Virus record (IMG/VR): IMGVR_UViG_3300042261_001186
Span: 62,001 to 126,000 of that record
Origin: a virus
Length of the DNA: 64,000 bases
Reading direction: 5' to 3' (one strand)
Part shown: positions 11,904 to 62,562 of the stretch, in pieces
How the letters are laid out: the number at the start of each line of letters is the position of its first letter
How positions within the stretch are numbered: position 1 is the stretch's first letter
The notes under the pieces: model-generated
Database searches by the model: none
Told to the model about the DNA's origin: nothing
The model's input: only the letters and a program-made list of their open reading frames with translations
Translations under genes and position numbers: made by a program

Positions 11904-12242
11904 TTATTTTTTTCTTTTAGATATTTTTGAAATTTTATTATTCAATTCCTCTTTTGTACAATTTTCTAATCCAATTGGTCTTTCTGTTTCATCACAATAC
12001 ATTTGAATATAATCATTATTGAATTCAACTATACTAATATTTAATTCATTTCCTTCAGAATCATATGTTCTGAAATCAAAATTTCTTTGAATATTATTAA
12101 AATCAATATGTTTAATTTCTATATCATTCATACCTTTTAATAAAGTTAAATAATCTTCAATTCCATGAAAATTCCAATTTTCTTCCCCTAAAGGATCAAC
12201 ATCTGAGTAATCTGTTTCAAACAATTTAAATTTAGTTATCAT
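11904..12242 (-). CDS. Head-peptide protein with DPLGEENW motif
   Basis: The 112-residue protein starts MITKFKLFETDYSDVDPLGE and continues E-N-W, so a head-peptide-like start is directly followed by the window-wide D-P-x-G-E-E-x-W motif. The remainder predicts as strands and a basic Lys-rich C-terminal helix (KEELNNKISKISKRKK). It is the first gene of a minus-strand run reading into the fibre genes and diverges from 12292, with TATATATA boxes between them. Confidence 0.7.
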   Translation of the reverse strand: MITKFKLFETDYSDVDPLGEENWNFHGIEDYLTLLKGMNDIEIKHIDFNNIQRNFDFRTYDSEGNELNISIVEFNNDYIQMYCDETERPIGLENCTKEELNNKISKISKRKK

Positions 12243-12291
12243 TTATGAGAATTTTATTTTAATATATATATAAAAATAAAAAAGACAAACT

Positions 12292-12903
12292 ATGAAACTT
12301 TTTGAAGAATTTATACAAGCTGATTATGAGATGGACAGAATTGTCAAACAACTTATTGAAAGAATAAATTATTGGTTTAAAGATGGTTCTTTCTCTTTAA
12401 GTTCATCACCTGTTGATATAACTAAAAGTTCTACACCAAATGCTTCAAAAAGAGCAATCATAACTAATTTTGCAGATGCAGAATTCTATTACCAACTAAT
12501 CATAAAAATATACATAGAAGATTTGGAAAATTGTGATGTTATACTGAAAAAATATGATCCAAATAAAATAGATGAACCAAATGGTGGCGAACCAATATCA
12601 CAAATAGATTTGACAAATGATAAACAAGTAAAAATTAATGAAGTTAAAGAAGATTTTATTATAAAGAAAATATCTGAATTGGATGATAAAAAAGAAAATC
12701 CAGATGAAAATAAAATAGAAACACCTAAAGAAAAAGAAGAAAAACCTGCACAAGGACAACAACCACCAGCTCAAGGTGGAATGCCTCCAGGTTCTATGCC
12801 ACCTCCTGCTCCTGGTGCACAAATGGGTGGAATGCCACCTGCTCAAGGTATGGCTCCTCCAGCACAAATGGGCGGAGCACCTGGTATGCAGACCCAAATG
12901 TAA
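12292..12903 (+). CDS. Protein with Pro/Gly/Met-rich tail
   Basis: The first 130 of 203 residues are folded-looking (MKLFEEFIQADYEMDRIVKQ start, helix-strand mix). After an acidic Lys/Glu linker (about 128-148), the last 55 residues are low-complexity repeats of A-Q-G-G-M-P-P and P-P-A-Q-M-G-G. Such tails are flexible and could be a spacer or a display segment on the virion. It heads a three-gene run ending in the lysin. Family unknown. Confidence 0.65.
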   Translation: MKLFEEFIQADYEMDRIVKQLIERINYWFKDGSFSLSSSPVDITKSSTPNASKRAIITNFADAEFYYQLIIKIYIEDLENCDVILKKYDPNKIDEPNGGEPISQIDLTNDKQVKINEVKEDFIIKKISELDDKKENPDENKIETPKEKEEKPAQGQQPPAQGGMPPGSMPPPAPGAQMGGMPPAQGMAPPAQMGGAPGMQTQM

Positions 12904-12928
12904 TTTATATATAAGATAAAAAACATAA

Positions 12929-13414
12929 ATGGAAATTGTAACATCAAGTAATATGATAAGAAGATTTAGAGGAATAAAAGAATTCCAAATGAATCTTGGA
13001 TTATCCAAAACAACTGAAATAAATAAAGAAGGTACAAAAAGTGGTCAACAGATAATAATAAAGATTAAAGATCCATTTGTTAAAAGATATCTTATGTTAA
13101 CTGGAAATTATTTAGTAAAAAGTGGAAATATAGGTTCTTTGAATTTCTATATGGATAATTCTGTTGGTTATAATAATTTCCTTATATATGATAAGGATAA
13201 AGAATATAAATTTGATTTTAAGGATACTGGAGATATTAGAAGTTATTTATCAGATATATTAGATAAAATACTTAATAATGAATTAACACCAACCAATTTG
13301 GAAATGAATATGGAAGAAGAAATAGAATTCAGATTGGATAAGAATTTACCACAAAGAGAATTTTTGGAAAAACAAAAGGAAATGCAAGAGGAAATGGCAA
13401 GAATGAAAATTTAA
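12929..13414 (+). CDS. Unknown 161-residue protein
   Basis: No family is recognised. The centre is strand-rich (QIIIKIKDPFVKRYLMLTG) and the C-terminus is a charged helix rich in Glu and Met (QREFLEKQKEMQEEMARMKI). It sits between the Pro-rich protein and the amidase with gaps of 25 and 17 bases, so it is likely in the same transcript. Confidence 0.65.
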   Translation: MEIVTSSNMIRRFRGIKEFQMNLGLSKTTEINKEGTKSGQQIIIKIKDPFVKRYLMLTGNYLVKSGNIGSLNFYMDNSVGYNNFLIYDKDKEYKFDFKDTGDIRSYLSDILDKILNNELTPTNLEMNMEEEIEFRLDKNLPQREFLEKQKEMQEEMARMKI

Positions 13415-13431
13415 AAAATAAACAAAAAATT

Positions 13432-14139
13432 ATGGAAAAAATATTATTAGAAGATATAGTTCAAGTAGATTTCCCTGAAAATCAATATTATAGGGAAGAA
13501 ACAAATAAAAAACAAATTGTACTACATCATACCGTTTCTGGTGGAAAAGCTGATGGAACAATAAGTTGGTGGAATCAAGATTCTCAAAAAATAGCAACTC
13601 AATTTATAGTTGATGCTAGTGGTGTTGTATACCAATTATATTCATCTAAATTTTGGGCACATCATTTAGGTATTAAAGCAGATTTTATAAAAAAATATGG
13701 TTTTACAGATTATGGTAACAGAAATACTCTTTTAAATAAAGAATCCATAGGTATAGAAATTTGCAGATGGGGTGGACTTTTAAAAGATTCTAATGGTTAT
13801 CACCCAACATATTGGGATGCTGCTTTGAAAAAAGAAGTTTGTCAAACCAAAATAACAATACCTAATGAAAACGTTCAAGTTTTTGATAAACCTTTTAGAG
13901 GATATTATGCATTTGAAAAATATACACCAGAACAAATTGAATCTGTTGGAAAATTAGTTACTTACTTAGGTGAAAAATGGGGTATTCCACTTGATTACAA
14001 TTCTGATATGTGGGATGTTAATAAAAATTCTTTAGGTAGTGTACCTGGTATTTGGACTCATGTAAGTTATAGAGCTGATAAATCAGATTTAATGCCACAA
14101 CCTGAAATGATTGAAATGTTACAGAATTTAACGGTTTAA
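13432..14139 (+). CDS. N-acetylmuramoyl-L-alanine amidase (lysin)
   Basis: This is an Amidase_2 (PGRP-type) zinc amidase that cuts between muramic acid and the stem peptide of peptidoglycan. Visible motifs are I-V-L-H-H-T-V-S-G-G with the first zinc His (about residue 28), ATQFIVDASGVVYQLYSSKF, and W-A-H-H-L-G with the second His region; later G-I-E-I-C-R-W-G and G-I-W-T-H-V-S-Y, which supplies the third zinc His. At 235 residues it is of ordinary size with no separate wall-binding domain or signal peptide, so it would need a holin or act from the virion. The start follows a 17-base gap. Confidence 0.9.
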   Translation: MEKILLEDIVQVDFPENQYYREETNKKQIVLHHTVSGGKADGTISWWNQDSQKIATQFIVDASGVVYQLYSSKFWAHHLGIKADFIKKYGFTDYGNRNTLLNKESIGIEICRWGGLLKDSNGYHPTYWDAALKKEVCQTKITIPNENVQVFDKPFRGYYAFEKYTPEQIESVGKLVTYLGEKWGIPLDYNSDMWDVNKNSLGSVPGIWTHVSYRADKSDLMPQPEMIEMLQNLTV

Positions 14140-16406: not shown

Positions 16407-16973
16407 ATGAAATCTTATGAAAATTTTGTGAAAGAAGGTATTAAACATTGGTTTAGGAAAAATGATTATGTTTTGAATGGATTTATTGGTGAAACAATAA
16501 ATCTTAGGATAACAGGTACTGATCATACTGAACTCAAGACTATAACTGAAAATCCAACTTATGCTAGATCATTGAAAGATGGATTTTATGGTAATTTTGG
16601 TATTTATTTTCATTTTAATAATGATAATGGATTAAAAATAGATGATGATATAGACCCTTTAGGTGAAGAAAATTGGAATGATGAAGAGATAGAAAATCTT
16701 ATCATCAGAAATGCTCAAACTACAAAGAAAATGGTATATAATTATCCTGGGTCATTTGATTGGGATAACGTACCTTATCACATATCTTTGACTTTTGGAG
16801 ATGAAGATATACCATTACAAACAGATAAAGCTGGTGTAGAATTGATAGGTAGATTGATAAAAGCTATTGCAGATAAAGAGATATGGACAGATGGTGATAG
16901 TAAAGGATTCACTCCATTGTTACACTATTATATCGAGGAATTAGAAAGAGGTGATTCAATTTTTAATATATAA
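16407..16973 (+). CDS. Head-peptide protein with DPLGEENW motif
   Basis: The 188-residue product starts MKSYENFVKEGIKHWF (head-peptide-like, cut site K-E|G). It holds D-I-D-P-L-G-E-E-N-W-N in mid-protein, in a loop between strands at about residues 87-95. The start is set by the TATATATA box 5 bases upstream. The rest is mixed alpha/beta without a recognised family. A small membrane-protein gene follows 17 bases later. Confidence 0.7.
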   Translation: MKSYENFVKEGIKHWFRKNDYVLNGFIGETINLRITGTDHTELKTITENPTYARSLKDGFYGNFGIYFHFNNDNGLKIDDDIDPLGEENWNDEEIENLIIRNAQTTKKMVYNYPGSFDWDNVPYHISLTFGDEDIPLQTDKAGVELIGRLIKAIADKEIWTDGDSKGFTPLLHYYIEELERGDSIFNI

Positions 16974-28818: not shown

Positions 28819-29348
28819 ATTATAAAAAATATAATGAATCTATTTACGAAGATTTTAAAATTGGTGATAGAGTCATCACGAAAGATTTATGGAAATTTAG
28901 TAATAAGTATGCAACTATTGTAAGGATAGATCATGGTGGTGATAAATATTGTATAGAATTTGATGAATTTATTGATGGACATAGTTGTTCAGGTAAGGGG
29001 AAAAAAGGACATTGTACTAATGCAAGTATTAAAAATTTAATTAAAATTGAAAAAGAAGAACCTATAAAAGAAGAAGATATAGAATGGTTTGAATCACTTA
29101 AACCAATGAATGAAAGTTTTGAGATAGGTGACATAGTGGTTTGCTTGGAGACAAAGAATGACAATAAAGGTAGGTTGAATTTCTTGGAAGGTAAAGAATA
29201 TCAATTGTTAAGGGGAATGGGAGACAAATATTTGTTTATTCAAGGGGAACAGAGAAACCTTGAATTATTTAGAAAAGATACTATACACAAATATTTTAAA
29301 AAAGTTGATATAAGTAATATAAAAGAAGAAGATATAGAATGGTTCTAA
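28809..29348 (+). CDS. Two-module SH3-like protein with inner and terminal IEW motifs
   Basis: The 179-residue chain holds two SH3-like units (F-K-I-G-D-R-V-I-T and F-E-I-G-D-I-V-V-C). The first ends K-E-E-D-I-E-W-F-E-S and runs straight on into a head-peptide-like K-P-M-N-E|S, then the second unit ends K-E-E-D-I-E-W-F-stop. It looks like two adjacent array genes fused where the overlap seam used to be, showing how the polyproteins nearby could arise. Confidence 0.75.
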   Translation: MVLNYKKYNESIYEDFKIGDRVITKDLWKFSNKYATIVRIDHGGDKYCIEFDEFIDGHSCSGKGKKGHCTNASIKNLIKIEKEEPIKEEDIEWFESLKPMNESFEIGDIVVCLETKNDNKGRLNFLEGKEYQLLRGMGDKYLFIQGEQRNLELFRKDTIHKYFKKVDISNIKEEDIEWF

Positions 29349-29692
29349 ATTATAAACAATTTAATGAAGGTAGATTTAATCCTTTTAGAAAAAAAATAAA
29401 TAATTTTATACCAAAACCACCAAAGTTTGTTAAACATTCAGATATAGATCCATATGGGGAAGAAGATTGGAATGATGGTAAATATCAAATGGGTGAAGAT
29501 CTTGTTGCTGTTAGAAATTTATATTATACCAAAGATGATGCCCCATTAATAACTAAAAACAAAGTATATAAAATCATAGATAAATTTGTGGAATATGAAC
29601 ATATAAGATATACTTTTATAAGTGATAAGGGGATAGAACACACATTGACAGAGGATTCAATGAAATTGAATTTTAAAAAGATACCACTTTAA
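29339..29692 (+). CDS. Head-peptide protein with DPYGEEDW motif
   Basis: This 117-residue product starts MVLNYKQFNEGRF (N-E|G), then a Pro-rich stretch, then D-I-D-P-Y-G-E-E-D-W-N-D near residue 40, followed by a strand-rich unit. Its start lies inside the IEW tail of the gene before (10-base overlap). The two motif types thus coexist in one coupled operon. Its end overlaps the convergent 29673 gene by 20 bases. Confidence 0.7.
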   Translation: MVLNYKQFNEGRFNPFRKKINNFIPKPPKFVKHSDIDPYGEEDWNDGKYQMGEDLVAVRNLYYTKDDAPLITKNKVYKIIDKFVEYEHIRYTFISDKGIEHTLTEDSMKLNFKKIPL

Positions 29693-30002
29693 AGTCTTTC
29701 CTATATATTTTGGCATATTTATTAGGAAAATCATATTTAGATTTTATCACAATATAATCATCTTTTATTTCTACAACATTAACAATATAAAGTCTTTCTT
29801 TTTCCATAGTAGAGGTTCCTTCAATTTTATCATATAAATTTCCAGTATCATCATTCCAGACTGGTGAATAAAAAATTAATTTTATATCATTAAGTGGTAC
29901 TATTTCATTTTCTCCTCTAACGACAACATCATCATCCCAATTTTCTTCATCAAATGGGTCATTCTCATTATATTGTTCAAATGTTTTAATCTTTGATTTC
30001 AT
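29673..30002 (-). CDS. Head-peptide protein with DPFDEENW motif
   Basis: A 109-residue protein: MKSKIKTFEQYNENDPFDEE then N-W-D-D-D, so head peptide and DP motif are fused at the N-terminus (N-E|N-D-P). The rest is a strand-rich SH3-like unit (ERLYIVNVVEIKDDYIVIKS). It is the last unit of the minus-strand polyprotein run and its start overlaps the previous module by 17 bases. Confidence 0.7.
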   Translation of the reverse strand: MKSKIKTFEQYNENDPFDEENWDDDVVVRGENEIVPLNDIKLIFYSPVWNDDTGNLYDKIEGTSTMEKERLYIVNVVEIKDDYIVIKSKYDFPNKYAKIYRKDFKVVSF

Positions 30003-30288: not shown

Positions 30289-31134
30289 TTAATTTAAACC
30301 AAATTCTCCTTTAAGAAACATAATTCCATTTCTATAATAACTATTTCTATTTGGATTTTTATCAAAAAATTCCTCTGCATCATTTCTAATAATTTCTATT
30401 ATTTCTTCTTTAGTTAACCAATGTCCTTTCCAAGCATATTGAGGTTTAATTTTAGGCCAAGATTCTTCTCCCCAATTCTCTTCATTATATGGGTCTATTT
30501 CATTGGATTCATTAACTATTCTATCAAAATGAATATCAAAATCATATTTAGCAAAAACATATTTATATGGGTGTCCTTGTACAATTCCTATCATAACAAT
30601 ATATTGATTATCTTCTTTGAAAATTTCATAATCTCTGTTACTGTGGAATATCCAATGTAAACCATTAGTAGTATGAACATCTCTTTTACAATGAGCATAA
30701 TGTTTTTTGTCTTCATCCCAATTCTCTTCATCATAAGGATCTATTTCATTATGTGTACTTTCAATGAAAAGTTCAGGATTTTCCATATATTTACCATTTT
30801 TAAGGTCATTAAAAGAGTTTTTGAGATATATCCTATTTAAGGAATAGTAGATTTCATGAATGAAATCCTGTTTTTGGTTCGGTGTCAATCCAATTGTATC
30901 AGACAATGAATCTAGGTAATGCTTTGTTTTTATGTAAACTTCAGTTTTATCGATTGTAGTCATGTATTCTTCTTGAAGATCGAATAGACCTTTTATTTCA
31001 TCATCATTCAAACCTATTCTCCTAAGCCAATTTACTAATCTTTCTTTATATCGTCTTGGTTCATATTGACTTTCCCTCCAATTTTCTTCATTGTAAGGAT
31101 CTATTTCATTGAAATCTTCAAATAGTTTAATCAT
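30289..31134 (-). CDS. Polyprotein with three DP motifs
   Basis: The 281-residue chain starts MIKLFEDFNEIDPYNEENW (head peptide fused to motif 1). A helical module (W-L-R-R-I-G-L-N-D-D-E-I-K-G-L-F) ends F-I-E-S-T-H-N-E-I-D-P-Y-D-E-E-N-W (motif 2). A strand module ends I-V-N-E-S-N-E-I-D-P-Y-N-E-E-N-W (motif 3), then a short end. The helical module is also found in the 835-residue neighbour (W-L-R-K-I-G-L-D-E-D-E-I-K-D-L-F), so modules are shared. Function unknown. Confidence 0.7.
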   Translation of the reverse strand: MIKLFEDFNEIDPYNEENWRESQYEPRRYKERLVNWLRRIGLNDDEIKGLFDLQEEYMTTIDKTEVYIKTKHYLDSLSDTIGLTPNQKQDFIHEIYYSLNRIYLKNSFNDLKNGKYMENPELFIESTHNEIDPYDEENWDEDKKHYAHCKRDVHTTNGLHWIFHSNRDYEIFKEDNQYIVMIGIVQGHPYKYVFAKYDFDIHFDRIVNESNEIDPYNEENWGEESWPKIKPQYAWKGHWLTKEEIIEIIRNDAEEFFDKNPNRNSYYRNGIMFLKGEFGLN

Positions 31135-31367
31135 TTCTTTATAAAATACTTTTTAGTCTCCTCATCACTGAAAAGTAATTCTTTACCCCTATCATTAAAA
31201 ACAGAATTAAAATGTTGTTTAGTATATTGAGCAGGAACTATTCTATCTATCATATAAGTATTACCTTTTGTAAAATTAAAATAAAACTCTTTAGCAATTA
31301 GTAAATCACCTTCATTATAAGTTTCATCACCCCATTCTTCTTCATTGAAAGGGTCTACTTCACTAAT
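31131..31367 (-). pseudogene. Out-of-frame polyprotein module
   Basis: Just past the end of the 835-residue polyprotein the +1 frame opens with I-S-E-V-D-P-F-N-E-E-E-W-G-D and runs 78 codons to a TGA that overlaps the next ATG (ATGA). No start codon precedes the motif. It is most simply the missing last module of the polyprotein, put out of frame by a one-base change, or reached by frameshifting. Confidence 0.55.
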
Positions 31368-42035: not shown

Positions 42036-42344
42036 ATGACAGATAGAGAAAAAATAGAGGTATTTTTAGCTTATGTTAGGAATAAATTATTGGATAAATA
42101 TCCTAATATAGTAATTAATACAATAATTTTTGAAGATGAAATTACATATGGTTTTACTTTTTTTGATATTGAAAATAAAAGAATGATGGGTCAAAATTAT
42201 GTAGGTCTACATTGGTTATCTTCTCATTGGGATTCTTTAGTAAATCATATGGAAAGGACATTAAATGTTCATTTTTTCAAACCAAAAACAAAACAAGTTT
42301 TCTGTGAAGTTGATCCATTTGGAGAGGAGGAATGGGAATGTTAA
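42036..42344 (+). CDS. Array protein ending DPFGEEEW
   Basis: The 102-residue protein (MTDREKIEVFLAYVRNKLL...) has the helix, K-Y-P-N-I-V-I-N-T strand and second-helix order of the IEW family but ends F-C-E-V-D-P-F-G-E-E-E-W-E-C. So the same fold can carry either tail. The codons for G-E-E-E-W (GGAGAGGAGGAATGG) also provide the ribosome site and ATG of the next gene, an overlap of 13 bases. Confidence 0.75.
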   Translation: MTDREKIEVFLAYVRNKLLDKYPNIVINTIIFEDEITYGFTFFDIENKRMMGQNYVGLHWLSSHWDSLVNHMERTLNVHFFKPKTKQVFCEVDPFGEEEWEC

Positions 42345-44118: not shown

Positions 44119-44319
44119 ATGGATGAAAAAGGTGGAATAATAGTTAAATCTAGAACGGTGAAACATAGATTGGAAATACCATTTGGTATGACGGTTCATT
44201 ATGTTTATTTAGCCAGTAATTTCATAGATCTTAATGATTCTGAATATAAAAAAGAAAAAGAAGGTAAAAGAATATTTAATGAAGTAGACCCATTTGGGGA
44301 AGAAAATTGGGAGGTTTAA
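44119..44319 (+). CDS. Small protein ending DPFGEENW
   Basis: 66 residues with strands (GGIIVKSRTVKHRLEIPFGM) and a Lys/Glu helix, ending R-I-F-N-E-V-D-P-F-G-E-E-N-W-E-V. It starts the DP-tail part of the array. GGGAGG in the tail codons lies 7 bases before the next ATG (44321). Confidence 0.7.
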   Translation: MDEKGGIIVKSRTVKHRLEIPFGMTVHYVYLASNFIDLNDSEYKKEKEGKRIFNEVDPFGEENWEV

Positions 44320-44320
44320 T

Positions 44321-44719
44321 ATGGCACTCAAATATTTGATAGTAAATAGAAGTAGAGTAAGAAATGTAAGGGGAGAATATATCCTTTATAGGTATACTCT
44401 TCAGAATTACAACAATAAATTAATTAGGTATCATGAGAAAGTTGTTGATCATGATTCATCTAGTTATTTGATTAAACATATTGTTATAACTCAAACATAT
44501 GTAAATAGATTCCAAGGACATATAGACAAAATGGCAAAAATAAAATTTTGGACACCTTGGACATTAAAAAAATATGAAAATGAAATAATAAATTTCACAT
44601 ATTTCGGTCAACTTCAAGAAGTATTAAACATGTTTAAATATTTGGATTATAATGAAGTAAAAGGGCAAAAATTCATACCGGAACTTGACCCATTCGGTGA
44701 AGAAAATTGGGAGGGATAA
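44321..44719 (+). CDS. Array protein ending DPFGEENW
   Basis: 132 residues: basic strands at the start (MALKYLIVNRSRVRNVRGEY), helix (ITQTYVNRFQGHIDKMAKI), K-F-W-T-P-W-T-L-K-K-Y-E-N-E, then Q-K-F-I-P-E-L-D-P-F-G-E-E-N-W-E-G. The W-T-x-x-x-L/Y-K-K/F-Y-E block recurs in the gene at 45082, so these two are relatives. The GGGAGG of the tail lies just before the next ATG. Confidence 0.7.
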   Translation: MALKYLIVNRSRVRNVRGEYILYRYTLQNYNNKLIRYHEKVVDHDSSSYLIKHIVITQTYVNRFQGHIDKMAKIKFWTPWTLKKYENEIINFTYFGQLQEVLNMFKYLDYNEVKGQKFIPELDPFGEENWEG

Positions 44720-44723: not shown

Positions 44724-45098
44724 ATGATGAGACTTAACTTAGAAATGCGACAGAAAATAGGACAACTGCAAGCTGTCTTAAATGATTTGAAAGATTTGCA
44801 AAGCAAATTGGAAGAAAATGTAATTCATTACAAGATTAAAAATATTGAATATGATCAGGTTAATGAACTTATAAATAAAAATATAGAAATTTTAGAAATT
44901 GAAATAAATTTCTTTAGTAATTGTTCATATAAGTATAGTAAAAAAATAGATGATAGAATATCTATGTTTAACCATACTAAAAATGGATTACTTGAAAATT
45001 ATAATTATATGTTTTATATGGAACCTAAAGGTCAAAACATAACTGATGAAGATCCTTTTGGTGAAGAAAATTGGGATTCAGATGATGATAATATTTAA
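44724..45098 (+). CDS. Coiled-coil array protein ending DPFGEENW
   Basis: 124 residues; almost entirely helical with heptads (KIGQLQAVLNDLKDLQSKLE; VNELINKNIEILEIEI). Ends N-I-T-D-E-D-P-F-G-E-E-N-W-D-S-D-D-D-N-I. The start at 44724 is preferred to upstream non-ATG options because GGGAGG lies 10 bases before it. It overlaps the next gene by 17 bases. Confidence 0.7.
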   Translation: MMRLNLEMRQKIGQLQAVLNDLKDLQSKLEENVIHYKIKNIEYDQVNELINKNIEILEIEINFFSNCSYKYSKKIDDRISMFNHTKNGLLENYNYMFYMEPKGQNITDEDPFGEENWDSDDDNI

Positions 45099-45549
45099 CA
45101 TAATACTTGGTAGTGTAATTCTTATTGTTTTTGTTTCTCTTATTTCTCTTTATTTATATTTTAATATGAAAGATAATAAATTTAAGAAATATATAAAATA
45201 TTTTTTTAGAGAAGAAAGATATGTGAATAGTTTGAAACGTACTTTTACTTTAATTAATGAAGATTTAAAAGAAATTGAATTCAAATTAGTAAATGTTCGT
45301 TATGATAAAGATATTATTGTAAAAGTATGGAATTTAGAATTCAGTATAGCTAGGACTCTTAAAGAATTTAATGATGTTGATTTTTGGACTAAAGGAAAAT
45401 ATTATAAGTTTTATGAAAAATTCAAAAAATATGAAAGAGAATTAATAGTAATACGAAAATTAAATGATATTTTAAATGATAACACTCCAAGAGGTCAAAG
45501 ATTTATACCTATTGATCCATTTGGAGAAGAAATTTGGGAAGATGATTAA
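45082..45549 (+). CDS. Membrane-anchored array protein ending DPFGEEIW
   Basis: 155 residues starting M-M-I-I-F-N-I-I-L-G, one membrane span to about residue 24 (VILIVFVSLISLYLYF), then long charged helices with D-V-D-F-W-T-K-G-K-Y-Y-K-F-Y-E-K-F-K-K, and end R-F-I-P-I-D-P-F-G-E-E-I-W-E-D-D. Its ATGATG start sits inside the D-D-D codons of the previous tail. Confidence 0.7.
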   Translation: MMIIFNIILGSVILIVFVSLISLYLYFNMKDNKFKKYIKYFFREERYVNSLKRTFTLINEDLKEIEFKLVNVRYDKDIIVKVWNLEFSIARTLKEFNDVDFWTKGKYYKFYEKFKKYERELIVIRKLNDILNDNTPRGQRFIPIDPFGEEIWEDD

Positions 45550-46714: not shown

Positions 46715-46972
46715 ATGAAAAGAGTTAAAGAAATAGTCCTTGATTTCAACACCAAAATGCACTTGTTTTTCCCACAAGTAACTAAAACATATATTGGTGG
46801 TAGGAAATTATTGGTGGAAAATTTATATTTCTCTAATGATGATGATGAATGGGTATCTATAAACAAAAAAGGTGAATTATTTACTTTAGAAGAAGCTAAG
46901 GAATTTCTAAATAATATAGATAAATATTTAGGGAGTAAAAAAGACATAACAATAATATATCATGAATTGTAA
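46715..46972 (+). CDS. Unknown 85-residue array protein
   Basis: MKRVKEIVLDFNTKMHLFFP, then basic-hydrophobic strands (Y-I-G-G-R-K-L-L-V-E-N-L-Y-F) and a helix ending I-D-K-Y-L-G. It overlaps the next gene by 11 bases. It has neither tail motif. Helix-strand-strand-helix like the IEW family. Confidence 0.6.
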   Translation: MKRVKEIVLDFNTKMHLFFPQVTKTYIGGRKLLVENLYFSNDDDEWVSINKKGELFTLEEAKEFLNNIDKYLGSKKDITIIYHEL

Positions 46973-47195
46973 AGTAACTAGGGAACAAGTAGAGGATTTA
47001 AAGAATTTTCATATGGGTATAGATGTAGTTCAAGCTCTTGAAGCACAATTGATTAAGGAGTTAACTGAAAATATTTCAGAAAATATAAGAGTTAGGATTC
47101 AAACCATAAGAAGTTATGATTATCCTGAGTTAAAGAAATACAAACAAGTGTTTAATGAAGTAGATCCTTATGGAGAAGAAATGTGGGAGGAATAA
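46962..47195 (+). CDS. Array protein ending DPYGEEMW
   Basis: 77 residues, two helices (TREQVEDLKNFHMGIDVVQA; LIKELTENISENIRVRIQTI) and end K-Y-K-Q-V-F-N-E-V-D-P-Y-G-E-E-M-W-E-E. The K-Y-K-Q-V-F-[N/S]-E-V-D-P block is the same as in the GC-rich gene at 47436, although codon choice differs. GGGAGGA sits 8 bases before the next ATG. Confidence 0.7.
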   Translation: MNCKVTREQVEDLKNFHMGIDVVQALEAQLIKELTENISENIRVRIQTIRSYDYPELKKYKQVFNEVDPYGEEMWEE

Positions 47196-47197
47196 TT

Positions 47198-47434
47198 ATG
47201 AAAAATGTTATGATAGTGGAAAACGTAAATCCGACCGGCGAAATCGTATTGAAAGGGACGTTCGTGACTTTCTCAATTAAGAATTCCGGTAGGTTCTATG
47301 ATGTTGAGATGTATAAATCCGCGTTGGCCGAGATATTGGCCAGAAAAGCCGAAAACGAGGAAAAGAAAAAACAGGCTTTCTGCCAGGTGTTCAGCGATGT
47401 GGACCCATACGGGGAAGAAGAATGGGAGGCTTGA
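47198..47434 (+). CDS. Array protein ending DPYGEEEW; start of GC-rich island
   Basis: 78 residues (MKNVMIVENVNPTGEIVLKG..., helix LAEILARKAENEEKKKQ, end V-F-S-D-V-D-P-Y-G-E-E-E-W-E-A). The first 15 codons are AT-rich like upstream; from about 47215 codons become GC-rich (CCGACCGGC, GCGTTGGCC). The base shift inside one gene marks the left edge of an imported or differently evolved block. Confidence 0.7.
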   Translation: MKNVMIVENVNPTGEIVLKGTFVTFSIKNSGRFYDVEMYKSALAEILARKAENEEKKKQAFCQVFSDVDPYGEEEWEA

Positions 47435-47435: not shown

Positions 47436-47921
47436 ATGGCATTGGTTAAAATGACGAACGCGACGCAGGAATTCAAGGACAACCTGACGGCGCAAGCGAG
47501 GTACCTCGAAATAGAAAACACTTACTTAGGCAGCGTGAATAGGGATTGCTGGGTATGGACTGGCAGGTGCTTCGCGCAGACTCTGAAAGGCAAAAACTTG
47601 AATTTGGATGGACACCGCGATTTCGGATGGATGAATTTCAAGGGATTCTCAAGAATAGACGGGTGCCCGGTTTTCTTAGTGCCTGAGAATTTCGCTGCAG
47701 GGGATAGATATGCTAGGATGATAGAAGTGTTCGGATTGATGACTTTGAACGCGGACGGAACGGCGAAGCATTATCAAAAAAACGATTTGCGGTTCCAATT
47801 GATAGAGCCTGTTTTTGAGGTGAGATATGCGCCCGGATACAAGCCTCTCCCTATGAAAAAATACAAGCAAGTCTTCAGCGAAGTCGATCCTTTCGGCGAA
47901 GAGAACTGGGAGGAGGATTGA
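47436..47921 (+). CDS. Array protein ending DPFGEENW (GC-rich)
   Basis: 161 residues: helix (T-Q-E-F-K-D-N-L-T-A-Q-A-R-Y-L), C-W-V-W-T-G-R-C-F-A-Q-T-L, F-G-W-M-N-F-K-G-F, strand-rich end and K-Y-K-Q-V-F-S-E-V-D-P-F-G-E-E-N-W-E-E-D. Unlike most array genes it has several Trp and Cys. The start lies one base after the previous stop, with GGGAGG just before it. No family recognised. Confidence 0.7.
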   Translation: MALVKMTNATQEFKDNLTAQARYLEIENTYLGSVNRDCWVWTGRCFAQTLKGKNLNLDGHRDFGWMNFKGFSRIDGCPVFLVPENFAAGDRYARMIEVFGLMTLNADGTAKHYQKNDLRFQLIEPVFEVRYAPGYKPLPMKKYKQVFSEVDPFGEENWEED

Positions 47922-48144
47922 TAGACGACAGGGAATACGTGAAAAGGCTGAAGTTTTTCAGGGAGCTGAAAATGACAAAGACAAATGGGCATCTTTCAGC
48001 GACGCAGAAAGGGGCCTGCTTTTGGAAAAAATGAGGGAAGTCTCCGATTATTCCGCGAATTTCAGGAAAAACAGAAAATTTAAAAAACTGCAAAAATATA
48101 AAGAAATAGACCCTTACGGGGAAGAAAACTGGGAGGACGATTGA
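47918..48144 (+). pseudogene. Frameshifted array gene ending DPYGEENW (GC-rich)
   Basis: A TTG at 47918 overlaps the previous stop (TTGA) and opens I-D-D-R-E-Y-V-K-R-L-K-F-F-R-E-L-K. After this, a neighbouring frame gives N-D-K-D-K-W-A-S-F-S-D-A-E-R-G-L, a helix, K-Y-K-E-I-D-P-Y-G-E-E-N-W-E-D-D. One missing A in the AAAA run near 47970 would join them into a 76-residue protein. Deletion or read error are both possible. The tail still abuts the next ATG at 48146. Confidence 0.6.
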
Positions 48145-48145: not shown

Positions 48146-48379
48146 ATGGGCGGGAGCTTAAGGATTACGACTAAATTCAACAAATATGCGATCGCGGAAT
48201 CAAAAGGCATAGACATGCTGAAAATAATAGAAGACGATTTGATAAGGCAGATGAAAAACTTAGGTTATCACAAATACGAAGTGATTAGGCACGATGATTC
48301 TATCGTCGTTCAATCCTGCACCGGAACAAGGATTTTTTCAGAAGTCGATCCTTTGGGCGAAGAAATATGGGAGGACTGA
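48146..48379 (+). CDS. Array protein ending DPLGEEIW (GC-rich)
   Basis: 77 residues: basic start (MGGSLRITTKFNKYAIAESK), helix (DMLKIIEDDLIRQMKNLGYH), strand pair, end R-I-F-S-E-V-D-P-L-G-E-E-I-W-E-D. The C-terminal GGGAGGA and TGATGG link it to the Vsr gene, whose ATG overlaps this stop by one base. Confidence 0.7.
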   Translation: MGGSLRITTKFNKYAIAESKGIDMLKIIEDDLIRQMKNLGYHKYEVIRHDDSIVVQSCTGTRIFSEVDPLGEEIWED

Positions 48380-50531: not shown

Positions 50532-50984
50532 ATGAATAATTTGAAAACATACAATAGTTACTTGAATGAAGGTAGGTTAATGGCTCAAAAAGAATATGAT
50601 GAAGTGTTGATAAAGATAATGAATAATATGAAAAAGTTTGTGAATGTTGCTAAAATTGAAGTAACTAAAACTAGTACAGCTAGGTATGATAAGATAAATT
50701 ATTATTATGAATATAACAAAAGTGATTATAAAGAAAGAGCACATATGGATGTTGATCCCTTAGGTGAAGATGATTGGGATGATGACAATGTTAAAAATAG
50801 GACATTGAATTTGAGAGCAAAATATGAAGAAGATGTTGGGTTTTTTCATAAAATAAAAGAATATGATTTTTGGATAAACAATGAAAAGCTTCAAATATCA
50901 ACCTATCTTATCAAGGATTTTATAAACTTATTGAAAAAGGCTAAATCAGATAGTATTAAAAAAAAATTTTTAGAAGATGTATAA
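50532..50984 (+). CDS. Head-peptide/DP-loop family, member 1
   Basis: 150 residues: MNNLKTYNSYLNEGRLM (L-N-E|G), helix (YDEVLIKIMNNMKKFVN), strands, then D-V-D-P-L-G-E-D-D-W-D-D in a loop near residue 75, a strand pair (F-W-I-N-N-E-K-L-Q-I-S) and a closing helix. First of six consecutive paralogues to 53197. The next start overlaps by 8 bases. Confidence 0.75.
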   Translation: MNNLKTYNSYLNEGRLMAQKEYDEVLIKIMNNMKKFVNVAKIEVTKTSTARYDKINYYYEYNKSDYKERAHMDVDPLGEDDWDDDNVKNRTLNLRAKYEEDVGFFHKIKEYDFWINNEKLQISTYLIKDFINLLKKAKSDSIKKKFLEDV

Positions 50985-51540
50985 ATTAAAAACATATGAA
51001 GAATACCAATTAAATGAAGCTAAGTACTTCAATAAACAAATGTATGATCCATTAATCACTAAAATTTGTGACATACTAGAAACAGGTGTCAGGTTGGATA
51101 GGTTAAGGGTGAATAAAGATAGTCAGGGACTCCTGGGCATGAGAGTGTATAATAGAGTTTGTAATGATCATTATCAATATACATACATAAAAAATGATTA
51201 CATTAAAAGGAATCACACAGAAAATGATCCTTATGGTGAAGATGAGGAATTGAATCCTGCAGAAACACTTGTCATAATAGCTAGAAAAGTCACCACTAGA
51301 ATTTGGAAAAGAAAACTTCAGGAGTTTGTGAAATACCCTAGTTATAAGATGAGTATAAATGGTTATGATATCAGAGTTTCAAATTACTTAGTTAAAAGGT
51401 TTATATATATAATGGAGAATGCCAAGAAGATAAAGGAGAGAGAAGATAAGAATTATCAAAAACAAAGAGAAATTGAAGCAAAAATAAGAAGAGAACAAGA
51501 AGACCTTGAAAAAAGGGATAAATGGATGAGTTCAATATGA
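50977..51540 (+). CDS. Head-peptide/DP-loop family, member 2
   Basis: 187 residues: MYKLKTYEEYQLNEAKYF (L-N-E|A), helix (PLITKICDILETGV), strands, E-N-D-P-Y-G-E-D-E-E near residue 84 where the Trp is lost, strands with M-S-I-N-G-Y-D-I-R-V-S, helix, and a long Arg/Glu/Gln helix at the end. The loss of Trp makes this a natural variant for testing the motif. Confidence 0.75.
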   Translation: MYKLKTYEEYQLNEAKYFNKQMYDPLITKICDILETGVRLDRLRVNKDSQGLLGMRVYNRVCNDHYQYTYIKNDYIKRNHTENDPYGEDEELNPAETLVIIARKVTTRIWKRKLQEFVKYPSYKMSINGYDIRVSNYLVKRFIYIMENAKKIKEREDKNYQKQREIEAKIRREQEDLEKRDKWMSSI

Positions 51541-51941
51541 AAAACTTGATAACATATAAACAATACCTCAATGAAGGTTGGTTCAGTGGTAAACATGATG
51601 GTATAGGCAGGAAAATATATCAATATGTCTTTGATAGAGATGATATAGAATATGTTTATAGTGGAGGTGGTGATTATTACACTTTTTATTTAAAACCTAC
51701 TGCTATACAAAACCCAGAGGCTGATCCTTTAGGTGAAGATGATTGGAATGAAAATATAGATAATCATCCTATACGAATTTATGTAAGTGGTGAATATAAA
51801 TTGAGATTAGATGGTGAAAACATAGATGTTTCTTCAGGTATAGTTAAAAAAATATACAAAGAACTCAAAAATAAAGCTAAAAAAATAGCAGACAAGAAAC
51901 TACAAGATAAAATAGATAGAGCAGAAAAATTATTAAGATAA
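51537..51941 (+). CDS. Head-peptide/DP-loop family, member 3
   Basis: 134 residues from the ATG that overlaps the previous stop (ATGA): MKNLITYKQYLNEGWFSGKH. Then I-Y-Q-Y-V-F-D-R-D-D-I-E-Y, Y-Y-T-F-Y-L-K-P, E-A-D-P-L-G-E-D-D-W-N-E, Y-K-L-R-L-D-G-E-N-I-D-V-S and a Lys-rich helix. N-E-G-W-F-S after the cut site is shared with member 4. Confidence 0.75.
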   Translation: MKNLITYKQYLNEGWFSGKHDGIGRKIYQYVFDRDDIEYVYSGGGDYYTFYLKPTAIQNPEADPLGEDDWNENIDNHPIRIYVSGEYKLRLDGENIDVSSGIVKKIYKELKNKAKKIADKKLQDKIDRAEKLLR

Positions 51942-51955: not shown

Positions 51956-52378
51956 ATGAATAATCTAAAGACATATGAAGAAATGGGTTGGTTTTCTAAA
52001 AAACCAAAATTTCTTGTAAAACCAGATGATGATGTTGCAACTAAACTTTTAGATTTTATAGTTAAACATTGTGATGAAATAGATTTACGAAATGATGCTG
52101 GTGATTACAGAATAAAAGTTTTCAGTATAAAACAAAAATCAGAGAATCCAGCAGATGATCCTTTAGGTGAAGATGATTGGGATGAAGAATCAACGGTAAT
52201 TGTAAAATTAGACTCTAGATATGAAAGATTGACTATTGATGATCAACTTCTAGATGTTTCTGTAGACCTTAAACTTAAAATTAATGATGCTTTAGATAAC
52301 ATATTAACATTGAGAGCGAACAAGATAAAACAGGCTAAGATAGACAAAATGCATAATCTTTTAAAAAAATTTGACTAA
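51956..52378 (+). CDS. Head-peptide/DP-loop family, member 4
   Basis: 140 residues: MNNLKTYEEMGWFSKKPKF (here the L-N-E is reduced to E-E-M|G), helix (ATKLLDFIVKHCDEIDL), strands, A-D-D-P-L-G-E-D-D-W-D-E, L-T-I-D-D-Q-L-L-D-V-S, helix, and I-K-Q-A-K-I-D-K-M. K-H-C-D-E-I-D-L is shared with members 5 and 6, so 4-6 are recent duplicates. Confidence 0.75.
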   Translation: MNNLKTYEEMGWFSKKPKFLVKPDDDVATKLLDFIVKHCDEIDLRNDAGDYRIKVFSIKQKSENPADDPLGEDDWDEESTVIVKLDSRYERLTIDDQLLDVSVDLKLKINDALDNILTLRANKIKQAKIDKMHNLLKKFD

Positions 52379-52791
52379 TGATGAAAAATTTGAAAACATA
52401 TGATGAATTATATGAAGGTTGATTTAAGTCAACTCCGAAACCAGATGATGCTGCAGCTGAAAGGCTCCTACAATACATAGTAAATCATTGTGATGAAATA
52501 GATTTGATATCAACACATGGTGGATATCATTACAATTTTGACATAAAAGAGAAAATACATAATGAAGAAGATCAATTAGGTGAAGAAGATTGGGGAGAAG
52601 TTATTCCAGTACATTTTGAAGGTGATAGATGGCTTTCTATTGATGGAGAAACATTGGATTTGTCTAAGAAAATGGGTTGGAAAATAAAAGATGCTTTGAA
52701 AAATCTAGATATATTGAAAAAAAACAAGATAAAACAGAGCAAGATAGATAGGATGGATAATTTAATAAAAAAATTAAATAAACATGAATAA
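52378..52791 (+). pseudogene. Head-peptide/DP-loop family, member 5, with Trp-to-stop change
   Basis: From ATG 52378/52381: M-K-N-L-K-T-Y-D-E-L-Y-E-G, then TGA (52420-52422) exactly where sisters have TGG for G-W-F, then F-K-S-T-P-K-P-D-D and an open frame to 52791 with V-N-H-C-D-E-I-D-L, N-E-E-D-Q-L-G-E-E-D-W-G and I-K-Q-S-K-I-D-R-M. A single G-to-A change explains it. The rest shows no decay, so the mutation is recent, suppressed, or an error. Reinitiation at a later ATG would make a product without head peptide. Confidence 0.65.
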
Positions 52792-53197
52792 TTTAAAGAC
52801 ATATGATGAATTAAATGAAGAACTGTTTTTCAAGAAAAAGAAGAAGGAAGATGATGTATTCGGTCAAAAATTGTTGGATTTCATAGTGAATCATTGTGAT
52901 GATATAGATTTGAAAAAACAAGGACGTTATTACACTTTCATCTTAAGAGCTGACAACAGAAATGAAAATGATCCATTGGGTGAGGAAGATTATGATACTG
53001 ATGTCAAAATAGTATATTGGGATTCAGATAGCACTTTTCATGACACCTTGGAAATTGATGGAGATGAAATAGATTTGTCAAGAGATATGAGGCATAAAAT
53101 ATTAAAAGCCCTTAAAAACCTTGATCAATTGAAGAAAAACAAGATCAAGAGAGGCAAGATGGAGAAAACAGAGAATTTATTGAAAAAATTCGATTAA
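52784..53197 (+). CDS. Head-peptide/DP-loop family, member 6
   Basis: 137 residues: MNNLKTYDELNEELFFKKKK (L-N-E|E), F-I-V-N-H-C-D-D-I-D-L, Y-Y-T-F-I-L-R-A, N-E-N-D-P-L-G-E-E-D-Y-D (Trp replaced by Tyr), L-E-I-D-G-D-E-I-D-L-S, helix, K-R-G-K-M-E-K-T. Starts 8 bases inside the previous gene. Confidence 0.75.
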   Translation: MNNLKTYDELNEELFFKKKKKEDDVFGQKLLDFIVNHCDDIDLKKQGRYYTFILRADNRNENDPLGEEDYDTDVKIVYWDSDSTFHDTLEIDGDEIDLSRDMRHKILKALKNLDQLKKNKIKRGKMEKTENLLKKFD

Positions 53198-55204: not shown

Positions 55205-55906
55205 TTAATCTTTATCTTCCGCTGTAGTTAAGAATGCTCCTATAAATACTACTAATCTTTTATCTATATTTCCAGAAATTGTAATATCATATTCTGGAGT
55301 TAAAGAAATTATTTTCTTCCTTGCAAATACAACTATATTTCCATTTGTGTCATATATTTCAACCGTTTTAGTGAACAAATTCAATTTTTTTGACTTTGCA
55401 ATAACCCTTCCAGTTGCATCCTTTATAGAATAAATATTATATACAGATACCAAGGATTCCAACACCTCTTGTTCCAATGAACCTATCAATGTACCCCTAG
55501 CATCTGATATCTTTATAACAGTGTATAAATTTAAAGGTTTTTGATGTGCCTTTGCTATCAAATTACCATTTGCATCTAAATATTCAAAAGTTTTACCTAT
55601 TGACAAAATTTTCTCATCTATTTTACCTAAATCATTTCCATTAGCATCCTTAATATCCATTACTGTTCCTATCGATATTATTTCCTTTGTTAAAGTAAAT
55701 TTATTTGGTAATTCTGCAGATTTAGAAGTTGGACTCCATGATGATTCTGTGTCAGGTCCAGACCAATTTATGTTTTTAAGAATGCCTTTATTTCCAAGAG
55801 TAATTGCCCCTGCAGCTATACCTAAACCAACTAATCCAGCAGCTAAAGTTTTTTTACCTAACTCTTCATTAAGACTATATTCTTCATATGATTTTAGTTT
55901 ATTCAT
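55205..55906 (-). CDS. LURP-one/scramblase-like repeat protein with head peptide
   Basis: 233 residues from the ATG that overlaps the previous stop: MNKLKSYEEYSLNEELGKKT (L-N-E|E), then a hydrophobic stretch (LAAGLVGLGIAAGAITLG) and a body of repeated hairpins: I-K-D-A-N-G-N-D-L-G-K-I, Y-L-D-A-N-G-N-L-I-A-K-A, I-S-D-A-R-G-T-L-I-G, I-K-D-A-T-G-R-V-I-A-K-S, I-Y-D-T-N-G-N-I-V-V-F-A. This x-x-D-x-x-G-x-x-[I/V]-[A/G] series is typical of Tubby-like LURP-one/scramblase domains. Membrane binding is plausible. Confidence 0.65.
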   Translation of the reverse strand: MNKLKSYEEYSLNEELGKKTLAAGLVGLGIAAGAITLGNKGILKNINWSGPDTESSWSPTSKSAELPNKFTLTKEIISIGTVMDIKDANGNDLGKIDEKILSIGKTFEYLDANGNLIAKAHQKPLNLYTVIKISDARGTLIGSLEQEVLESLVSVYNIYSIKDATGRVIAKSKKLNLFTKTVEIYDTNGNIVVFARKKIISLTPEYDITISGNIDKRLVVFIGAFLTTAEDKD

Positions 55907-56801
55907 TTCCATATATTTCATTTTGCATTGCTTCCATAGCCATAACTACAGCAGCAAAAGTTCCTTCTATAACATAACCATAAAGACTTTCCACACCTAC
56001 TTCTTCATCATAGAAATCATTATCTGCCAATATCTGATCTACATCATTTTGGTATTTCAAATAAAAATCAAAAATGTCAGCATCTTCAATAAAACCTTCA
56101 AGTACTTCTTCTGAATCCTCATTAACATAACTATCTATGAAATCCTGTACTTTTGTAATATCACCATCTAATTGTTTATCTAATAACTCTAATATACCTC
56201 TTTTAAGAGATGTATAAGTGTTGGATACCTTATCCCTTAACTCATCAGTGATAGCTTCATTAACAGAAGGATTGACCTGTTTAAATGACTTCAGGCCTTC
56301 ATTTGAATTCATTATTTCAATGAGACTTTTTCTTAAATCCATAGTTTTGAAAGTCTTTTTAGGTTTTTCTTCACCATCATTCCAATCTTCTTCACCAAAA
56401 GGATCTCTTTCATCATAAACTCTTTGAGATTGTGATATAAGACCATTGAATGATTTGACTTTTTCATCCATTTGTTTAATATTAACCATAATCTCATAAT
56501 TCTTTATTATGTCATATAAATTCTCTATATCTTCATAAACACTATCTATTATTTGATCATTACCTTCTTGATCAGTAACTTTCTTTTTTACTGCATTAAT
56601 AGTGTAGTTTTTCTTACCTTCTCTATTAAAATTCAATTTGAAACCAGTTTTGGTTTCTTTAAAAGAATCAAAATAATCACTTTTTATAACATCATGGTTA
56701 TAAACATAATCACATACTTCCTTAGCTAGACTAAGTAGATCACCAAATGAATGATGATTAGTATAATGTTGTTCGAAAAATTTTGAAAAATTTAGTGTCA
56801 T
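55899..56801 (-). CDS. 300-residue head-peptide protein with DPFGEEDW motif
   Basis: Start MTLNFSKFFEQHYTNHH. Strand-helix domain to about residue 125, then E-R-D-P-F-G-E-E-D-W-N-D-G-E-E near 132, a Lys-rich linker, S-N-E-G-L-K-S-F and S-V-N-E-A (both possible cut sites) and a helical acidic C-domain. The last helix is Ala/Met-rich (GTFAAVVMAMEAMQNEIY). Two N-E|[G/A] sites near residues 167 and 181 could split the protein in two. Confidence 0.7.
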   Translation of the reverse strand: MTLNFSKFFEQHYTNHHSFGDLLSLAKEVCDYVYNHDVIKSDYFDSFKETKTGFKLNFNREGKKNYTINAVKKKVTDQEGNDQIIDSVYEDIENLYDIIKNYEIMVNIKQMDEKVKSFNGLISQSQRVYDERDPFGEEDWNDGEEKPKKTFKTMDLRKSLIEIMNSNEGLKSFKQVNPSVNEAITDELRDKVSNTYTSLKRGILELLDKQLDGDITKVQDFIDSYVNEDSEEVLEGFIEDADIFDFYLKYQNDVDQILADNDFYDEEVGVESLYGYVIEGTFAAVVMAMEAMQNEIYGNE

Positions 56802-61259: not shown

Positions 61260-61838
61260 ATGAGCCCGCACGAACACGAGATATATGACAGATTAAAACA
61301 TATTGTTGAGTTATATAGGAAAAAAGGTCTTTCTTCAATAGAAATAAGACAGCATTTTTTAAAACCAAAAAATTTCAATGGTAAGTTAATACATAATATG
61401 AGGGATTTAAAACATATTTATGATGAACAACATTACCCTTTAGATTTTGAGACAACCGTTTATAATTGTTTATTTTATAGAGTATTGATGGATAGGATAT
61501 ATTATGAGAAAGACAATCCACAAGCTCAAGATGAATCTGTTGTTAAGAATTTTAGAGATTATTTGAATGAATCAAACAAGAAACTGATAAAGGAAGCAAA
61601 GAAAATGAATATGGATGATTTAGAAAAAATGAGGATGGATAACATCTCTACAAGGCAATTAACATCAATAATTGCAAATTATGAATTTAAGGCATCTAAG
61701 GCAGATGCTAAAACAGCCAAGAATTACAAAGAGATGGCTAAAGTTTATAAAGAAGAATTGGAAAAAAGACAAGGGGAATTACATAAAAAAATGATGTCTA
61801 AAATAGATAGTGAGGGACGATGGATAAAATCGCCTTGA
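61260..61838 (+). CDS. Unknown protein with a head peptide in mid-chain
   Basis: 192 residues. Residues 1-92 form a helical domain (EHEIYDRLKHIVELYRKKGL; F-N-G-K-L-I-H-N-M-R-D-L). Then V-V-K-N-F-R-D-Y-L-N-E|S-N-K-K near 95-108, an exact head-peptide pattern inside the chain, followed by helices (MDDLEKMRMDNISTRQLTSI; KASKADAKTAKNYKEMAKVY). Either an in-line cut site or a fusion of two genes. No family recognised. Confidence 0.7.
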   Translation: MSPHEHEIYDRLKHIVELYRKKGLSSIEIRQHFLKPKNFNGKLIHNMRDLKHIYDEQHYPLDFETTVYNCLFYRVLMDRIYYEKDNPQAQDESVVKNFRDYLNESNKKLIKEAKKMNMDDLEKMRMDNISTRQLTSIIANYEFKASKADAKTAKNYKEMAKVYKEELEKRQGELHKKMMSKIDSEGRWIKSP

Positions 61839-61859
61839 AGGTCATTGAAAACAATGATT

Positions 61860-61892
61860 AAAGAGATCAGAAAACTAGTTTTTTGATCTTTT
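61860..61892. terminator. Terminator
   Basis: AGATCA and TGATCT enclose AAAACTAGTTTT, itself able to fold, followed by T6. It closes the 61260 gene and possibly the convergent 61897 gene. Confidence 0.65.
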
Positions 61893-61896
61893 TTAT

Positions 61897-62166
61897 TTAT
61901 ATCTCAAATTTTTCAAATAAATCTTTAACAGGTGGGAGTACAGTGAATATCTTCATTAATAAATCTTCTAAATGTTCATATTCATATATTGTTGTAATAT
62001 TTAATAATTCTGTAAGTTTTTCATCTGTGGTTAAAACGTATTTAGATTTTGAATTGAACCAGAATATCATTTGATATATTTTATCATCTATGTTAAGTGA
62101 TAATAACACTGCAACTCCGTTTTTAACTTTACCAATGTAGTCGACTATAGATATACTAACTTCCAT
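61897..62166 (-). CDS. Unknown 89-residue protein
   Basis: From ATG at 62166: MEVSISIVDYIGKVKNGVAV, strands (L-L-S-L-N-I-D-D-K-I-Y-Q-M-I-F-W-F), helix (LEDLLMKIFTVLPPVKDL). This start is preferred over one 24 codons upstream because the extra segment is Phe/Tyr/Lys-rich and overlaps the promoter region shared with 62221. No family recognised. Confidence 0.6.
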   Translation of the reverse strand: MEVSISIVDYIGKVKNGVAVLLSLNIDDKIYQMIFWFNSKSKYVLTTDEKLTELLNITTIYEYEHLEDLLMKIFTVLPPVKDLFEKFEI

Positions 62167-62220
62167 ATTTAAACAAGTAATTTTTAATATATATAGAAAA
62201 TAAAATGTTCGTTTTTTACA

Positions 62221-62562
62221 ATGATTAATAAATTCCATATGTTTGAAAATAAAAGAAGAGACATAGATCCTTATGATGAAGAAATTTGGGATGATGTAGA
62301 TTATGAGATGATGTTTGTAAAGTTCCTAATTCAAAATAAATTGGTGAATAAATATGTACCAAATTTATTGACATCTAAATTAGTCAAAGTAGAGACAGTA
62401 AAAGAATTTATGGATCAATTCCCACCAGAAAGATGGGTAAGAAACGCTTTTCGTTGGACAGACACTTCTCAAGATTTTATGTTTTGGAATAATATAGATA
62501 TAATGTGGAATCAAATATTGGTCAATCACAATTATGATTTTGAAGAACATGCATATGAATAA
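62221..62562 (+). CDS. Head-peptide protein with DPYDEEIW motif
   Basis: 113 residues: MINKFHMFENKRRDIDPYDE, then E-I-W-D-D, so head-peptide-like start and DP motif adjoin. The rest is helical with several Trp (R-W-V-R-N-A-F-R-W, F-W-N-N-I-D-I-M-W). It lies just before the baseplate-like gene. Function unknown. Confidence 0.7.
   Translation: MINKFHMFENKRRDIDPYDEEIWDDVDYEMMFVKFLIQNKLVNKYVPNLLTSKLVKVETVKEFMDQFPPERWVRNAFRWTDTSQDFMFWNNIDIMWNQILVNHNYDFEEHAYE

Follow-up and report, generated by a model that had tools for sequence, protein, structure and literature searches.

Why would one phage place the same short peptide on so many of its proteins? The question is raised by a 64,000-base stretch of virus DNA (the window; bases 62001-126000 of the 130,397-base record IMGVR_UViG_3300042261_001186), in which the peptide DP[YFL].E[ED].W, here called the tag, recurs in reading frames on both strands. 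Judged by sequence, the window phage is a huge phage and kin of LR756501 (DNA polymerases 73% identical), a 735-kb phage with the largest genome in the 2020 huge-phage survey (PMC7162821). The tag is among the most constrained parts of the proteins that carry it, it is a feature of one phage clade, and many of its carriers are partial copies of head and tail proteins. It points to an undescribed protein-addressing system around virion assembly.

Frequency, conservation and distribution of the tag

Six-frame translation of the window gave 38 strict matches to DP[YFL].E[ED].W, compared with none in each of 20 Markov shuffles. Three or four degenerate copies, such as DPLGEDNL at 34543, DPYGEDEE at 51226 and DPLGEEDY at 52970, bring the total to about 41 in about 25 reading frames, in agreement with the more than 40 occurrences on both strands reported in a preliminary description of this DNA. 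Open reading frames (ORFs) were simply taken to start at ATG and to encode 40 residues or more, the longest being chosen first, and ORF counts are therefore approximate; by this rule 33 tags fall into 23 ORFs of the window, the others being located in short ORFs or just beyond the stop or frameshift of module genes (30247, 31332). The tag is found in N-terminal-type position at residues 12-16 (ORFs 11904, 29673, 30289, 34534 and 62221), in mid-protein (16407, 29339, 50532-53197 and 55899), between modules (30289, 31363 and 34534) and at the extreme C-terminus (ORFs 40591 through 48379), all as previously claimed. The tag peptide is KRVFSELDPYGEENWEE, and the consensus D-P-Y-G-E-E-[ND]-W-[DE]-[DE] is identical for N-terminal, internal and C-terminal sites; C-terminal copies have an extra K..[RQ][VI][FYI]S[ED][LIV] upstream of the tag.

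We compared the window phage with LR756501 (W01 in protein names), with the IMG/VR relatives G001, G002, G003, G004, G005, G008 and G010, and with two untagged sister phages, G025 (345 kb) and G036 (159 kb). The contigs in this comparison are fragments, and G003 is near to W01. When W01 orthologues are compared with those of G003, the tag has 2 nonsynonymous differences against 45 synonymous ones, equivalent to a ratio of nonsynonymous to synonymous substitution rates (dN/dS) of 0.006, as against 0.16 for the rest of the tagged proteins and 0.10-0.13 for untagged proteins. Synonymous change in the tag is normal (dS 0.59). The low ratio in the tag demonstrates selection on the peptide, and the ratio in the remainder, set against that of untagged proteins, indicates that the tagged bodies are working proteins. 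The tag persists in divergent orthologues, with a few exceptions (for example, the LR756501 orthologue of window ORF 55899-56801 is 48% identical and has no tag); a general absence from orthologues, or conservation no higher than in the flanks, would have spoken against a shared function, and neither was seen. The earlier claim that the peptide is kept with different codons also holds, as tag codons vary widely, but in LR756501 they are biased relative to the genome (TAC 75% versus 36%, CCT 67% versus 35%). From this shared bias we conclude that the copies spread by DNA duplication and were then held by selection on the peptide.

A back-translated DNA pattern matched the whole 130,397-base record 52 times (reversed pattern, 0), and LR756501 contains 106 tag copies, while huge or jumbo phages of 634, 541, 462 and 219 kb gave no matches. 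The tag is carried by 8.4% of W01 ORFs, by 18.4% of those of the window's record and by 11-29% of those of other contigs of the clade, compared with 0 of 502 in G025 and 0 of 233 in G036. Among 33 contigs found via their capsid protein, the tag occurs only where this protein is at least 78% identical to that of the window phage; each of the 28 contigs in which this identity falls short of 70% lacks the tag, and so does a short one at 76%. The tag is thus a feature of one clade. Taken together, the dN/dS of 0.006, the persistence in divergent orthologues and the absence from sister clades strongly support selection on the peptide and a common function.

A 3.3-kb contig, 99.9% identical across three lake Bacteroidales/Bacteroidetes metagenome-assembled genomes (L269, L275 and L278), encodes a ParB-methyltransferase-like protein and a 96-residue protein with the exact terminal tag PKRIFSEIDPYGEEDWEN (2551-2841, plus strand, in L269). 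It has no match in the phage collection and is either a mis-binned phage piece or another element.

Virion-protein copies, leaders and putative cleavage sites

The 202 tagged proteins form 152 clusters, and the view that their bodies are unrelated in sequence is mostly correct, the exceptions being some module paralogues and several fragments of the phage's own virion proteins. The latter were missed in the preliminary description and are the most informative fact about the tagged set. Pfam and PHROGs provide no usable function for the tagged proteins of the window. The parents of the fragments were identified as a T4-type portal (PF07230) and, by PHROGs, as the major head protein, the head maturation protease and the tail sheath; several fragments are also recognised by PHROGs. 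When the short partial paralogues of W01 were counted without bias as to parent, the major capsid protein proved the commonest parent, with 13 pieces, eight of them tagged, followed by the portal (five pieces, one tagged), the protease/scaffold protein (four, all tagged) and the sheath (two, both tagged). Over all contigs, fragments and tags are associated with an odds ratio of 13 (p=4e-12), and in W01 alone with one of 10.4 (p=8e-5). Profiles of capsid protein, protease and portal, each built on up to 50 relatives, and of the sheath, built on a single sequence, confirm the partial copies against a control of reversed sequences, whose best independent E-value (iE) was 1e-3. Searches of open-access papers turned up neither a tag of this type nor capsid-fragment families.

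Tagged pieces span capsid residues 1-43, 87-133, 142-238, 345-389, 431-516 and 517-566. Some proteins are mosaics: in W01_48028 three portal segments in shuffled order surround a tag, G001_72313 is part capsid and part protease, and G001_70970 contains one capsid segment twice, with a tag after each copy. In the tagged protease copies W01_11314 and G008_1507, His57, His77 and one or both of Ser132 and Ser133 are replaced; these four residues are invariant in 48 of 48 real proteases, and the copies are therefore predicted to be inactive. A capsid fragment of the window is 32% identical to its W01 relative, compared with 78% for the true capsid proteins. By eye, W01_497197 and W01_554211 seemed likely to contain pieces of DNA polymerase B, and W01_554211 and W01_555792 pieces of tail fibres; these had no profile support and are not claimed. 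An 84-residue protein of LR756501 (W01_730457_730711; 730457-730711) combines a leader, TEYLNE, with the mature N-arm of the capsid protein and has no tag.

The capsid protein itself (G000:53832-55631, minus strand) contains a tag-like strand, IYVDPY[MQ]RWDDN at residues ~500-520, that is near-invariant in the family. In tag likeness the capsid protein ranks fourth among 640 untagged proteins and is not an outlier, so that the resemblance may serve as a weak lead only.

Many proteins begin with M..K[YF]..F[ILV]NE. In T4, a short N-terminal leader is sufficient for diverse proteins to be loaded into the head (PMC9026906; PMC3012670); residues 4 and 7 of the leader are reported to serve for targeting and residues 8 and 10 for processing (PMC9026906). 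The leader Y..F[ILV].E is present in 49 of 965 W01 ORFs, enriched 15-fold at N-termini over protein bodies, and co-occurs with the tag (odds ratio 4.2, p=1e-9). An aromatic-x-x-aromatic-[ILV]-x-Glu pattern thus stands at the N-termini of unrelated proteins, in a phage whose prohead protease, portal and capsid protein are of T4 type; in sequence, the leaders have the features of the T4 capsid targeting sequence. The tag itself is not a T4 capsid targeting sequence, because it is mostly internal or C-terminal and not N-terminal. The scaffold part of the protease/scaffold protein contains 12-13 repeats of I.Y..Y[IVL]AE, mostly 14 residues apart. The leader matches this repeat and has the look of one unit of it.

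An invariant [ML]NE stands near residue 42 of the capsid proteins, at the presumed maturation cleavage site. The pattern [LIVMFY]NE is 4.2-fold enriched beside tags, compared with 1.1-1.5-fold for the controls QE, DE and KE, and fused module proteins can be read as leader-body-tag units joined by predicted NE sites. For the earlier suggestion of a processing signal, this enrichment is indirect support.

Tagged reading frames of the window

The tagged ORFs and isolated tags of the window are as follows.

11904..12242, minus strand: 112-residue ORF, MITKFKLFE leader, tag 12174-12197 (VDPLGEENW)
16407..16973, plus strand: 188-residue ORF, capsid-targeting-like leader MKSYENFVKEG, mid-protein tag 16653-16676
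29339..29692, plus strand: 117-residue ORF, leader MVLNYKQFNEG, tag 29447-29470
29673..30002, minus strand: 109-residue ORF, leader MKSKIKTFEQYNE, tag 29937-29960
30247-30270: fourth in-frame tag, directly past the stop of the 281-residue module protein
30289..31134, minus strand: 281-residue module protein, three tags (31078, 30718, 30472)
31332-31355: additional tag directly downstream of the 835-residue module protein, in another frame
31363..33870, minus strand: 835-residue module protein, six tags (33460, 33403, 32608, 32284, 32035, 31654)
34534..35718, minus strand: 394-residue module protein, four tags (35659, 35437, 35200, 34939) and a degenerate C-terminal tag (34543)
39451..39780, plus strand: 109-residue ORF, tag 39610-39633
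40591..40896, plus strand: 101-residue membrane-type protein, C-terminal tag 40861-40884
41165..41662, plus strand: 165-residue ORF, leader MVMKNFSNFLNED, C-terminal tag 41624-41647
41659..41871, minus strand: 70-residue ORF, C-terminal tag 41668-41691
42036..42344, plus strand: 102-residue ORF, C-terminal tag 42312-42335
44119..44319, plus strand: 66-residue ORF, C-terminal tag 44287-44310
44321..44719, plus strand: 132-residue ORF, C-terminal tag 44687-44710
44724..45098, plus strand: 124-residue ORF, C-terminal tag 45051-45074
45046..45549, plus strand: 167-residue membrane-type ORF, C-terminal tag 45514-45537
46962..47195, plus strand: 77-residue copy of major capsid protein residues ~345-389 (profile iE 1e-7), C-terminal tag 47163-47186
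47195..47434, plus strand: 79-residue copy of the prohead protease N-terminus (alignment score 73; best of 500 shuffles 66), C-terminal tag 47402-47425
47436..47921, plus strand: 161-residue copy of major capsid protein residues ~148-238 (profile iE 1e-5), C-terminal tag 47886-47909
48109..48132, plus strand: C-terminal tag of a short ORF
48146..48379, plus strand: 77-residue ORF, C-terminal tag 48347-48370
50532..50984, plus strand: 150-residue ORF, leader MNNLKTYNSYLNEG, mid-protein tag 50754-50777
50977..51540, plus strand: 187-residue paralogue, degenerate tag 51226-51249
51522..51941, plus strand: 139-residue ORF, leader NLITYKQYLNEG, tag 51723-51746
51956..52378, plus strand: 140-residue ORF, tag 52157-52180
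52784..53197, plus strand: 137-residue paralogue, degenerate tag 52970-52993 (DPLGEEDY)
55899..56801, minus strand: 300-residue ORF, tag 56382-56405
62221..62562, plus strand: 113-residue ORF, leader MINKFHMFE, tag 62266-62289

The linkers in the 394-residue module protein read [LI]NE[NS]H.[ED][VI]DP. The tags at 30247-30270 and 31332-31355 suggest that the module genes at 29.9-33.9 kb were formerly longer and are now eroding. The capsid copy at 47436..47921 shares GFSRIDG.P.F with the capsid protein. ORF 48146-48379 was considered as a further capsid copy and rejected, as 60 of 500 shuffles scored as well.

A paralogue family with the pattern SCM...FDIY..NP...LLVLxD...GRALVW is located at 3627-7938, 19889-20767 and 60178-61206 of the window; several members have capsid-targeting-like leaders, and the family has no Pfam or PHROGs match. 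Other C-terminal peptides are shared as well. KEE[DN]IEW[FLVMIY] ends about 15 small proteins, in this phage only (18406-19127, 25798-26447, 28552-29348 and 37278-44064 of the window); its GAATGG often overlaps the next ATG, with several cases lacking a downstream start. The ending E..K[LM]GL[LMIF] is common to about 29 small proteins of G025 (e.g. 303-335 kb, loci L244-L245), most of them unrelated (three similar pairs among 465); roughly half overlap the start of the next gene and half do not. Other lineages may use C-terminal tags of their own. In LR756501 (219-223, 274-278 and 673-675 kb), a C-terminal RT.LID is common to 18 small proteins, several of them zinc-ribbon-like by eye.

Possible roles of the tag and comparison with known systems

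We tentatively propose, at somewhat short of an even chance, that the tag is a clade-specific, position-independent docking motif for one partner at the prohead, carried by an accessory proteome that is packaged or associated with assembly. The labelled set would comprise module proteins with T4-like capsid-targeting leaders together with small copies and mosaics of capsid, portal, protease, scaffold and sheath proteins. A leader (Y..F[ILV]NE, a putative copy of one 14-residue scaffold repeat) or a virion-protein fragment would bring the protein to the assembling particle, where the tag would bind the common partner, and the prohead protease would cut nearby [hydrophobic]NE sites, separating the modules. 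Of the original interpretation, peptide-level selection and a shared function stand; the location at the prohead, the cleavage and the common partner are what we infer. The purpose may be cargo loading, assembly control or interference. When conserved genes specific to the clade were screened for the partner, 43 candidates were left and none was preferred.

Several observations weigh against a docking motif at the prohead. Depending on the pattern used, ~65-84% of tagged proteins have no recognisable leader, some tagged proteins seem to be membrane-bound, and the tail sheath is not a part of the prohead. The sister phages have no tag, yet they possess leaders and, in small number, capsid and portal fragments; the tag is therefore dispensable for either. 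The association of fragments with tags over all contigs counts orthologues that are not independent of each other. Single-chain AlphaFold models of a capsid copy and a module protein (mean predicted local distance difference test scores of 42 and 31, respectively) were too poor to be used.

A somewhat unlikely alternative is that the fragments form a decoy or interference library, mimicking conserved virion pieces so as to sequester host sensors that recognise capsid, portal or tail proteins, or to poison the assembly of rival phages or satellites; the tag would then recruit an effector or keep the mimics off the phage's own assembly. Capsid proteins are known triggers of defence, and Lit can be switched on by a short peptide from a capsid protein (PMC9712102). 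This explanation would account for fragments that tile several capsid regions as well as portal, protease and sheath, for the shuffled order of mosaics such as W01_48028 and G001_72313, for the predicted loss of protease activity and for the divergence of the capsid fragments relative to the true capsid proteins. However, the majority of tagged proteins are not recognisable virion fragments, many have packaging-type leaders, and short segments joined as mosaics may neither fold nor bind. In its strongest form, which we consider unlikely, the phage would carry a library of mimics, namely pieces of its own capsid, portal, protease and sheath proteins that are short, out of order and without enzymatic activity. 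These would disarm host sensors of virion proteins or sabotage the virion assembly of rivals, and the tag, as their common handle, would bring in a shared effector or identify them as self.

It is quite unlikely that the tag is a degron or a localisation signal acting apart from the head, read by a phage or host protease or adaptor, a membrane or a replication compartment. Many tags do form the very end of a small protein, in some cases one with membrane segments, and other lineages have shared C-terminal peptides of different sequence (E..K[LM]GLL in G025, KEE[DN]IEW in the window phage), but such a signal would leave unexplained both the internal and N-terminal copies between modules and the link to virion-protein fragments and NE sites. 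A nucleotide-level effect, whether the tag DNA overlaps the ribosome-binding site or start of the following gene or is a mobile or recombinogenic repeat translated in frame, is very improbable and largely ruled out by dN/dS: 70 of 107 C-terminal tags lie within 15 nucleotides of the next start (all genes, 45%) and the LR756501 tag codons are biased, but the other 37, like the N-terminal and internal tags, have no adjoining start, and the synonymous sites of the tag change normally while its amino acids do not, which also excludes translational coupling as the main cause.

If the tag is indeed a docking motif, finding its single partner would give context at once to dozens of huge-phage genes; in LR756501, about one protein in twelve carries this one short peptide under near-absolute selection. 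The fragmentary, predicted dead copies of capsid, portal, protease and sheath proteins are a new kind of accessory gene, with candidate roles in head assembly, cargo ejection or conflict, and the match between cargo leader and 14-residue scaffold repeat suggests a simple route to capsid-targeting signals.

A look-alike of the tag, SIEDP[FY].E[DE]DW, is found in Lactobacillales in what we take to be the active-site loop of enolase; as this loop is part of a conserved enzyme and not transferable, the likeness is probably a coincidence. Hub short linear motifs, such as the sliding-clamp and single-stranded DNA-binding protein (SSB) C-terminal motifs, are read by one partner on many unrelated proteins; they have other sequences, and the tag also has internal copies. 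The ejection proteins and the prohead-protease processing of the giant phages SPN3US and phiKZ offer a parallel, many proteins being packaged and cut after a short motif ending in Glu, but we found no shared tag of this kind described there. The capsid targeting sequence of T4 internal proteins, processed by gp21, is likewise one short peptide on unrelated, fast-changing proteins, and the residues of the leader Y..F[ILV].E are spaced like its positions 4 and 7, reported to matter for targeting, and 8 and 10, for processing (PMC9026906). Unlike the T4 sequence, DPYGEExW is a different peptide that occurs at N-terminal, internal and C-terminal sites, belongs to one clade and marks copies of structural proteins.

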